Below, piece by piece: positions 33,965 to 59,683 of a DNA stretch of 64,000 nucleotides; the stretch's first letter is position 1, and every line of letters starts with the position of its first letter. A program made the position numbers and the translations under genes. The notes beneath the pieces are model-generated. The model was not told the origin of the DNA. It saw only the letters and a program-made list of their open reading frames with translations, and did no database searches. This DNA is from Silicimonas sp. (GTDB lineage: Bacteria > Pseudomonadota > Alphaproteobacteria > Rhodobacterales > Rhodobacteraceae). The stretch covers positions 1 to 64,000 of the forward strand of contig JAJDUZ010000027.1 of NCBI GenBank assembly GCA_022826385.1, read 5' to 3'.

Positions 33965-34921
33965 TCAGACGAGAACTCCCTCCTCGGCCTTGGCAGCCTT
34001 CAGATTGCGCGCCAGCAAATCCATTGCCGCCATGCGCACGGCCACCCCCATCTCGACCTGATCCTGAATCACCGAGCGATTGATGTCATCGGCAATGGTT
34101 CCGTCGATTTCTACACCGCGATTCATCGGGCCGGGATGCATGACGATCGCGTCGGGTTTGGCATGGCCCAGCTTCTCGGCATCAAGGCCGAAGCGGTGGA
34201 AATATTCACGCTCGGACGGAATAAAGGCCCCGTCCATGCGCTCTTTCTGAAGGCGGAGCATCATGACGACATCCGCGTCCTTTAGCCCTTCAACCATGTC
34301 GGTATAGACCTCGACACCCCATTCGGCCGCTTGCGACGGCAGAAGGGTCGGCGGCCCGACAAGGCGCACGCGGTTTTCCATCTTGCCCAGAAGGTGGATG
34401 TTCGACCGCGCCACGCGGCTGTGGGCGATGTCGCCGCAAATTGCGACGGTCAGCCGGTGCAGCCGACCTTTTGCACGGCGTATGGTCAGCGCGTCCAGAA
34501 GCGCCTGCGTCGGATGTTCGTGCCGACCGTCGCCCGCGTTCAACACGGCGCAATTCACTTTCTGGGACAACAGGCTGACGGCACCGGAGTGCGGGTGACG
34601 CACCACAAGCAAATCGGGATGCATGGCGTTCAGGGTCAGCGCTGTATCGATCAGCGTTTCACCCTTTTTGAGCGATGTCGCCTGCATATGCATGTTCATC
34701 ACGTCGGCGCCCAGCCTTTTGCCGGCCAATTCGAAACTGGCCTGCGTGCGGGTCGAAGCCTCGAAGAACATGTTGATCTGCGTCAGGCCCGCCAAGGCAT
34801 CACTGTGCTTGCTGTCACTTCGGTTCAGTGCAGCATAGCTGTCGGCAAGATCGAGAAGCGTGGTGATTTCATCGGGGGCAAGATGTTCGATGCCCAAGAG
34901 ATGACGTGCGCGAAAACTCAT
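33965..34921 (-). CDS. pyrB: Aspartate carbamoyltransferase catalytic subunit
   Basis: 318 aa, starting at ATG 34921 ([10 protein letters not shown]); the ORF-track start is 27 codons upstream and lacks family residues. The carbamoyl-phosphate loop is [14 protein letters not shown], followed by [25 protein letters not shown], and MHPGPMNRG. It makes carbamoyl aspartate, the committed step of pyrimidine synthesis. No pyrI regulatory subunit is present, so the class that pairs with a degenerate PyrC is likely. Confidence 0.96.
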
Positions 34922-57513: not shown

Positions 57514-57972
57514 TCAGGAGGCTTCGACAGCCTTTGCGTCGACCGTCTCGCCGTTCAAAATCTCGATGCGGCGGGGCTTCAGCGCTTCGGGCACTTCGCG
57601 CAGCAGATCGACATGCAGCATGCCGTTCACGTGGCTGGCGCCGGTCACACGAACATGGTCGGCAAGCGTGAAGCGACGTTCGAAGGCGCGGTTGGCGATC
57701 CCGCGATGAAGATACGTCCGCTCGTCAGTGTCCTCGGACTTCCGGGCAGACACGACAAGGGCGTTCTCGCGAACTTCAACCGACAGGTCTTCTTCGCCAA
57801 AACCGGCCACGGCGATGGAAATACGCCAGGCGTCGTCAGCGGTTTTTTCGATGTTATAGGGCGGATAGGACGGGGTCTGGGCCGTGTCGGCCAGAATGCG
57901 GTCCATCATGTCGGCGATTTGATCGAAACCGACGGTTGCACGATGCAAAGGTGCAAGGTCAAACCTTCTCAT
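57514..57972 (-). CDS. Small heat-shock protein Hsp20 (IbpA-like)
   Basis: 152 aa from ATG 57972 (MRRFDLAPLHR); GGAGGA is 7 nt upstream. The alpha-crystallin core spans about 40-130, with DAWRISIAVAGFGEEDLSV and the FERRFTLADHVRVTGASHVNGML segment; the C-terminal IEILNGE carries an IXI-type anchor. It is an ATP-independent holdase. The leader carries a ROSE-like thermometer and an RpoH-type promoter, so heat induction is predicted at two levels. Confidence 0.95.
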   Translation of the reverse strand: MRRFDLAPLHRATVGFDQIADMMDRILADTAQTPSYPPYNIEKTADDAWRISIAVAGFGEEDLSVEVRENALVVSARKSEDTDERTYLHRGIANRAFERRFTLADHVRVTGASHVNGMLHVDLLREVPEALKPRRIEILNGETVDAKAVEAS

Positions 57973-57974
57973 AA

Positions 57975-57998
57975 GGTCATCCTCCATTGAGCGATACC
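57975..57998 (-). ncRNA. ROSE-type RNA thermometer hairpin in the hsp20 leader
   Basis: The transcript reads GGUAUCGCUC-AAUG-GAGGAUGACC. GGU pairs with ACC, AUC with GAU and CUC with GAG, with bulged G in the U(C)GCU arm and on the 3' side. It buries the GGAGGA Shine-Dalgarno. The UYGCU motif opposite the Shine-Dalgarno is the hallmark of ROSE elements, which melt on heat shock. The structure is deduced by hand. Confidence 0.8.
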
Positions 57999-58065
57999 AG
58001 ATCAGCCTTCCCATTGGGCAAGGCACTTTTCAGTCGCCGGACCCGTCATTGGCGCCCGACAAAAT

Positions 58066-58096
58066 CGAGATAGGAACATCGAATTCGGGGTTCAAG
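58066..58096 (-). promoter_or_regulatory. RpoH-type promoter of hsp20
   Basis: On the minus strand CTTGAA (-35) is followed, after 18 nt from TTG, by CCTATCTCGA (-10), which fits the alphaproteobacterial RpoH form TTG-N17/18-CYTATNTNNG except at the last base. The -35 overlaps the stop of the upstream protease gene. It would give a leader of about 85-90 nt that contains the ROSE hairpin. Confidence 0.75.
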
Positions 58097-58748
58097 AGGG
58101 GTCGTTCAACATGTCGAGCAGCGGCTGTATCCGCGAGCGCGCATTCGCGGCCACCGCGACGGACCGGCCGCCCTGTTGTGCCCTGCTGTTGATGACGGCG
58201 ACCAGTTCGACGCCGTCCTCTTTCAAACGCAGGACGGGTCCGCCGCTTTCGCCACCTTGGACGATGCAGCCCAGCGTCACGACAACTGGTATCGCACCGT
58301 CGATCACAACGCATCTACGGGTTCTCGGTCGCGTGCGCGACATGCCGCGCCAACTGGCCAGAAAAAGCCCTTCACCCGCCTCAGCTTCCGGACCGATGTC
58401 GAACGGCACGGCGGTGGCTGGATCAACTGGTGTCGCAAGTTGCGCAACGGCTATGTCGAACCGCAGCCGCAGCAGGCGCTGATTTTGGAAGCTGGTGTAA
58501 TGGGGATGAACCACCACGCGTTGCACCCGTATCGGATCGGCATCTACATCGCTGCCAAGTCGGAATGTGTATCCAACCCCGTCATCTTCCTTGACGCAGT
58601 GCGCAGCCGTCACGATGACGTCGGGCCGCACGAGCGACGCAGAACAGCCGCCGCCGCTTTCGTTTTCAATCCTGCCTGCGGCCTTGAACGGATCTGCAGT
58701 GGCAGGAACGGCAAGGCAGCAAAAGAACCAGGCAAGAGCGAAGCGCAT
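58092..58748 (-). CDS. Secreted trypsin-like serine protease (S1), copy 1
   Basis: 218 aa from ATG 58748 (MRFALAWFF) with AGGA upstream. The signal peptide ends near residue 19 (LAVPATA). The triad is His in VTAAHCVKE, Asp in FDIAVAQLA and Ser in GGESGGPVL. A disulfide pair is possible between GGGC and AAHC. It acts outside the cytoplasm; the substrate is unknown. It lies 35 nt downstream of a second related protease. Confidence 0.9.
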   Translation of the reverse strand: MRFALAWFFCCLAVPATADPFKAAGRIENESGGGCSASLVRPDVIVTAAHCVKEDDGVGYTFRLGSDVDADPIRVQRVVVHPHYTSFQNQRLLRLRFDIAVAQLATPVDPATAVPFDIGPEAEAGEGLFLASWRGMSRTRPRTRRCVVIDGAIPVVVTLGCIVQGGESGGPVLRLKEDGVELVAVINSRAQQGGRSVAVAANARSRIQPLLDMLNDPS

Positions 58749-58783
58749 TCTTGCATCCTGCAAGTCGTTCAGACCGGGTCAAG

Positions 58784-59611
58784 TCACGGTCGCAGGAATT
58801 TGGCCCCATCCCGGCCAGACAAGCGGCGCTTCTCATCGGGACGAATGATGTTGACCTTGGGTGCGGCCGCAACGGCACCGGTCCCGCTGTTCAAGAGGGC
58901 CATCATCTCGGACAGTGGCTTTTCGAGGTTTGTTCCAAGCGCCACCTTGCGCCCGCGCACCTCGGCTTTGGCGGAGACGACCGAAACGATCCGTGGTTGT
59001 CCGTTCTCTTCCGCAAAAATGGGTGCTCCAGACGACCCGAAGTCGACATTGCAAGAAAGAACAAGCGATCCGCGCTGGCGGGCCAGCACGTGGCACACTT
59101 CCTGGATCGAAGGTGAATCCGCGCGATCATGTGCATATGAGACAACGCCCACCTGCTGCCCCTTGCGCGGACGTTTGGCCGTCTGGAAGGGCGCAACGCT
59201 GGGCAAACGGATGTCGCTGACCAGCTCGAACAAGGCCAGATCATTGGCCACGTTGCCTGCAGCTTCGGTGCCCGTGAACACGTAGTCCGGGTGGATGACG
59301 ATGCGACCGACCTTGCGCGAGGCAGTGGCGTGCCCATTGCGGAAGCCCGCGTGGAACACGATGTCTCTTGCTTCGATCAGATCGCCGGAATGAGCATCGA
59401 ATGCGCAATGCGCTGCAGTGAGAACGATGCGAGGCGAGATCATGGCGCCGGTGCACATGCCGCCCCAACCGATGTTCAAACGGCCAACGGCCTCCCAGCC
59501 GCGCGCGTCATAGGCTGTCATGATCTTCATCAGCTCCGACGGCTGATTGTCCTGACTGGCGGCCGTGGTGGCGCAAAATGCCGCGAAAACTGCGGCAAGC
59601 ACACGTCGCAT
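58784..59611 (-). CDS. Secreted trypsin-like serine protease (S1), copy 2
   Basis: 275 aa from ATG 59611 (MRRVLAAVFAAF), after a signal peptide that ends near ATTAAS. The triad is His in LTAAHCAFD, Asp in NDLALFELV and Ser in FGSSGAPIF, where the usual GDSGGP is changed to GSSGAP. A C-terminal extension of about 35 residues ends in a basic cluster. Paralogous to the next gene and probably co-transcribed with it. Confidence 0.88.
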   Translation of the reverse strand: MRRVLAAVFAAFCATTAASQDNQPSELMKIMTAYDARGWEAVGRLNIGWGGMCTGAMISPRIVLTAAHCAFDAHSGDLIEARDIVFHAGFRNGHATASRKVGRIVIHPDYVFTGTEAAGNVANDLALFELVSDIRLPSVAPFQTAKRPRKGQQVGVVSYAHDRADSPSIQEVCHVLARQRGSLVLSCNVDFGSSGAPIFAEENGQPRIVSVVSAKAEVRGRKVALGTNLEKPLSEMMALLNSGTGAVAAAPKVNIIRPDEKRRLSGRDGAKFLRP

Positions 59612-59683
59612 ACCGAACCTCTTCCCTCTTCGGGGTCCGACGTTACTGATGCCTTGCGGCAAGAATATGTCGACCCGGAAGAA

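Follow-up and report, generated by a model that had tools for sequence, protein, structure and literature searches.

Predicted two-stage heat control of hsp20 in a Silicimonas genome: an RpoH-type promoter and a ROSE-like leader conserved in Rhodobacteraceae

The small heat shock gene hsp20 of a Silicimonas genome is preceded by a short leader in which the motif UCGCU faces the Shine-Dalgarno sequence GGAGGA, an arrangement that raises the question of whether the gene responds to heat twice, at transcription through RpoH and at translation through an RNA thermometer. Elements of the ROSE type were reportedly described in rhizobia by Nocker et al. in 2001. An earlier reading made from the sequence alone had proposed both levels of control for the present locus, which lies within a stretch of 64,000 nucleotides referred to here as the window. 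Its promoter, leader fold and relationship to known ROSE elements were analyzed by comparison with homologous loci across Rhodobacteraceae and other alphaproteobacteria.

The hsp20 gene and its RpoH-type promoter

The gene occupies positions 57514..57972 on the minus strand and encodes an IbpA-like small heat shock protein of 152 amino acids (PF00011, E 1.2e-18). Its ATG start codon (57972-57970, minus strand) is found in the same position in 110 homologues. Close relatives of the protein occur across Rhodobacteraceae, with named neighbors in Silicimonas, Kangsaoukella, Boseongicola, Roseovarius and Ruegeria; the closest named relatives of the genome are Silicimonas, in agreement with the sequence-only assignment to Rhodobacterales. 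Immediately upstream, on the same strand, lies a tandem pair of trypsin-family (PF00089) serine protease genes (58092-59662), the nearer of which (58763-58092, minus strand) terminates with a TGA stop codon located inside the -35 element described below.

All components named in the sequence-only reading, namely CTTGAA, a spacer, a leader, UCGCU and GGAGGA, were found where it had placed them on the minus strand upstream of hsp20. The -35 element CTTGAA (58096-58091, minus strand) and the -10 element CCTATCT (58074-58068, minus strand) are separated by a 16-nt spacer, and the strict pattern CTTGAM-N15-18-CHYATNT matches only this promoter when both strands of the 64 kb are searched. Of 104 distinct sequences upstream of hsp20, 102 contain the same pattern, lying between -90 and -111 relative to the ATG and having a spacer of 16 in 78 of the 102, versus a single occurrence among 109 control regions taken at -300 to -170 of hsp20 loci. 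Across the 102 homologues, the consensus reads CTTGAA-N16-CC[C/T]AnnT. The genome itself encodes RpoH (368 bits, above the cut-off) together with a second RpoH-like factor. In Rhodobacter sphaeroides, RSP_1016 and RSP_1572 are the genes that we take to be its two hsp20 genes. Both are listed under protein folding in the RpoHI regulon of that species (PMC3441632). The hsp20 promoter fits the RpoH (sigma32)-type pattern CTTGAA-N13-18-C[C/T][C/T]ATnT upstream of a heat shock gene, in a genome that encodes the sigma factor; the Escherichia coli consensus is quoted in PMC3669281. From these sequence features, we infer that hsp20 is transcribed by RpoH from a start near 58061.

Leader fold and its comparative support

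The leader spans approximately 95 nt and is predicted to fold into three hairpins, each of which, in the window's own leader, carries a bulged G in its 5' strand. Hairpin 1 (58037..58059, minus strand; UCGGGC-G-CC / GG-GUCCGG, with a bulged G) begins at about the expected transcription start, as does the Rfam ROSE match considered below, which starts at 58059. Changes on both sides of the pair were observed in six of its eight pairs among 88 relatives, and in six of the seven pairs of hairpin 2 (58005..58024, minus strand; GCCUU-G-CCC / GGGAAGGC, with a bulged G). Hairpin 3 (57976..57998, minus strand), the putative thermosensor, pairs UCGCU (57994-57990) with the Shine-Dalgarno sequence GGAGGA (57985-57980, minus strand, 7 nt upstream of the hsp20 ATG), leaving G57992 bulged; RNA folding gives its stem as AUC-(G bulge)-CUC / GAG-GAU. 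The claim that UCGCU faces GGAGGA with a bulged G is upheld both by this fold and by the presence of UYGCU..AGGA in 104 of 105 hsp20 relatives. Extended to the start codon, UYGCU..AGGA..ATG occurs twice in the 64 kb, once at 34079 and once at hsp20, and only the latter occurrence precedes an identified gene.

The fold was evaluated in an alignment of 88 hsp20 leaders sharing less than 85% mutual identity. Paired cells account for 92.4% of the three-hairpin fold, compared with 86.0 +/- 0.4 in shuffles (0/500), and double-change cells number 122 against 40 expected. Both-side changes occur in 13 of the 21 leader pairs, and pairing falls to 40-60% when partners are slid by one to three columns. 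Within hairpin 3, 99.1% of cells are paired and a compensatory change is seen in one of six pairs (C-G to U-A, in eight sequences); such changes are few because the Shine-Dalgarno sequence and UYGCU are nearly fixed. Alignment positions T74, G76, C77 and T78 are invariant in the 88 leaders, and the bulged G of the UYGCU strand is also present in the fold. Covariation support is thus uneven, being strong in hairpins 1 and 2 and modest in the thermosensor.

The support for the promoter and the leader fold is comparative in nature; the single-sequence folding energy of the leader is ordinary (z = -1.41). Nearest-neighbor folding keeps the Shine-Dalgarno sequence at least 86% paired up to 52 °C, with parameters that omit non-canonical ROSE pairs. 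The slight predicted melting is not decisive because ROSE elements rely on just such heat-labile, non-canonical pairs (PMC4166951).

Relation to known ROSE elements and distribution

At its gathering score of 45 bits, the Rfam ROSE model RF00435 produced no match in the window, in the genome or in 20 relatives. Under relaxed limits, the model aligned over its full length (1-94) to 57966..58059 on the minus strand, with 28.5 bits and an E-value of 0.024. The sequence-only reading had named the absence of an above-threshold ROSE hit as a refutation and, taken literally, that outcome was obtained. The cut-off is unsound as a refutation because it is missed by all 40 Rhodobacteraceae genomes searched (E up to 10), while the best sub-threshold matches are hsp20 leaders, which make up 18 of the 28 such matches and include the top 14. 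It follows that the Rfam model recognizes the element and is thresholded for a narrower group.

A covariance model built from hsp20 leaders plus 12 coding bases (R1) scored 80.5 bits in the genome, without a credible second match. Across 289 alphaproteobacterial genomes from 224 genera, it found the element in 91 genomes and 75 genera, versus one genome for Rfam at its curated cut-off. At an E-value of 0.001, RF00435 yielded eight matches across the alphaproteobacteria, five of which coincide with R1 matches. At each of the 33 class-wide loci checked from the R1 and Rfam searches, an hsp20 gene starts in the register expected. Since R1 contained coding bases, two further models were built using only the leaders, one including structure (R2) and one limited to sequence (R3). 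The R2 match at 57973..58067 (minus strand, 77.4 bits) is the best in the whole genome, the next best reaching 16.4 bits. When applied to held-out loci from other families, R2 recovered 33 of 33 (two weakly, at E 0.008 and 0.035) and R3 28 of 33; R2 also recovers the loci that Rfam detected. Within Rhodobacteraceae, R2 detects it in 138 of the 150 genomes searched, and several of the 12 genomes without a match also lack an hsp20 orthologue. Two weak R1 matches elsewhere in the genome (L112 and L113), considered as a second three-hairpin copy, disappear under the leader-only R2 and were rejected; they adjoin a solute-receptor gene and a UspA-like gene, as named by eye, and probably reflect the coding start included in R1.

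Judged by reciprocal sequence matches in the same register, the hsp20 leader is homologous to the element modeled by RF00435. It shares with rhizobial ROSE its location downstream of a promoter and within the mRNA leader of a small heat shock gene, a first hairpin with a bulged G, a terminal hairpin in which U(U/C)GCU lies opposite the Shine-Dalgarno sequence with a bulged G, and a full-length, same-register covariance match; it differs in that this match falls below the Rfam cut-off. Members of the ROSE class have two to four stem-loops (PMC4166951), a range that accommodates the three hairpins found here, of which the two 5' hairpins show strong covariation. By its sequence, the leader is accordingly assigned to the ROSE-like thermometer class, and it is not a member of RF00435 as thresholded.

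Over 40 ROSE elements had already been described from a range of alpha- and gammaproteobacteria (PMC4166951). The suggestion that the present example extends ROSE to a new order does not hold, as a 2011 paper had noted ROSE-like motifs preceding ibpA and hspD in the roseobacter Nautella sp. R11 (PMC3230580), likewise a member of Rhodobacterales and likewise with such elements at two small heat shock genes. That report is a one-sentence prediction whose main text gives no sequences, promoter or comparative analysis (PMC3230580). An experimental parallel is Pseudomonas ibpA, which also combines a sigma32-type promoter with a ROSE leader in which U(U/C)GCU opposes the Shine-Dalgarno sequence (PMC3669281), although that element comprises two hairpins in approximately 62 nt rather than three in approximately 95 nt. 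The combination of sigma32 and ROSE has been demonstrated for P. putida (PMC3669281) and proposed for M. loti (PMC3989490). The RpoH promoter and ROSE leader of hsp20 are therefore ordinary in kind, and ROSE in Rhodobacterales was already known. What is new, as far as the surveyed literature shows, is the family-wide conservation with covariation, together with the observation that almost all of these elements escape Rfam. Sequence models indicate that nearly all Rhodobacteraceae carry ROSE-like thermometers, which are also widespread elsewhere among alphaproteobacteria; because Rfam misses the element, a likely regulator of heat tolerance is absent from the genome annotations of this abundant marine group. 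The leader alignment made here could serve to widen the Rfam family.

Predicted control of hsp20 and alternative explanations

We consider two-stage heat control by an RpoH-type promoter and a ROSE-like leader, as the sequence-only reading had proposed, to be the best reading of the locus, with a probability of about 0.92; the comparative fold and the covariance models favor it, and the effect of temperature is assigned by analogy with the class. In the first stage, RpoH would start transcription approximately 7 nt downstream of the -10 element, so that the mRNA would begin with hairpin 1. In the second stage, the three-hairpin leader would act as a ROSE-like thermometer, with a heat effect expected from its class. 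Hairpins 1 and 2 would serve as stable scaffolds, and the conserved UCGCU would hold GGAGGA in the imperfect, G-bulged helix of hairpin 3, so that ribosomes would be unable to bind at normal temperature. Warming would then open hairpin 3 and permit translation of hsp20.

The genome contains a second hsp20 gene (at about 1300-1389 of locus L152, G000:C72). It has its own promoter of the sigma32 type, CTTG..CATAT, and its short ROSE-like leader carries UCGCU..AGGA and comprises two hairpins, a layout shared with Pseudomonas ibpA. All 30 second-hsp20 loci compared, one from this genome and the others from 29 relatives, carry the leader motif, and 27 of the 30 carry the promoter pattern. Rfam searched at an E-value of 1 gave no match on the second leader.

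A further layer of control, which would supplement the RpoH and thermometer explanation without replacing it, would be autorepression, with the Hsp20 protein binding the leader and blocking translation of its own mRNA in the manner of E. coli IbpA; by analogy, we regard this as possible and advance it tentatively. Unfolded protein would titrate Hsp20 away, and the block would be released at constant temperature. In E. coli, self-repression dependent on the 5'UTR requires R93, R97, K98 and Y34 of IbpA, of which R93 and Y34 are also conserved in the alphaproteobacterial proteins (PMC10474464). All 110 hsp20 loci retain GIAxRAFERR/K (FDRR in one) and YPPYN, which match the R-3-R-(K/R) spacing. 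The equivalence of these residues to the E. coli numbering is one that we infer, leader binding is predicted from the motif, and the motif could be retained for chaperone function. In D. shibae, oxidants raise Hsp20 while RpoH is not induced (PMC8007024), an observation that a third layer would also fit. The second Hsp20 lacks a basic residue at the site corresponding to K98; hence the first protein (Hsp20-A), which keeps the leader-binding residues, would repress itself and the second (Hsp20-B) would not. The composite picture for typical Rhodobacteraceae genomes, in which hsp20-A has a three-hairpin ROSE leader, hsp20-B has a two-hairpin one and temperature-independent self-repression forms a third layer in A only, is somewhat more doubtful still.

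Alternatively, the leader might only stabilize the mRNA or set a constant low level of translation, leaving heat control to RpoH alone. The slight predicted melting and the concentration of covariation in hairpins 1 and 2 would suit such a leader, but a nearly universal UYGCU opposite the Shine-Dalgarno sequence with a bulged G is the signature of thermoregulated elements, and those carrying it in P. putida and P. aeruginosa have been shown to be thermoregulated (PMC3669281). Together with the homology to Rfam ROSE, this makes a non-switching leader very improbable. The notion of a chance hairpin beside a chance promoter, or of conservation imposed by an overlapping gene or DNA-binding site, finds some encouragement in the unremarkable folding energy and the short UCGCU/GGAGGA complementarity, but it is already refuted, with next to no probability left, by covariation exceeding the shuffled and slid controls, by the element's occurrence in nearly all Rhodobacteraceae genomes and by the single strict promoter match in the 64 kb. 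An additional start-codon hairpin, ACCUU-AUG-AAGGU (57961-57978), predicted when the window's own sequence is folded, was considered as a general feature of the leader and set aside, as it is missing in most Rhodobacteraceae and restricted to Silicimonas-like leaders.
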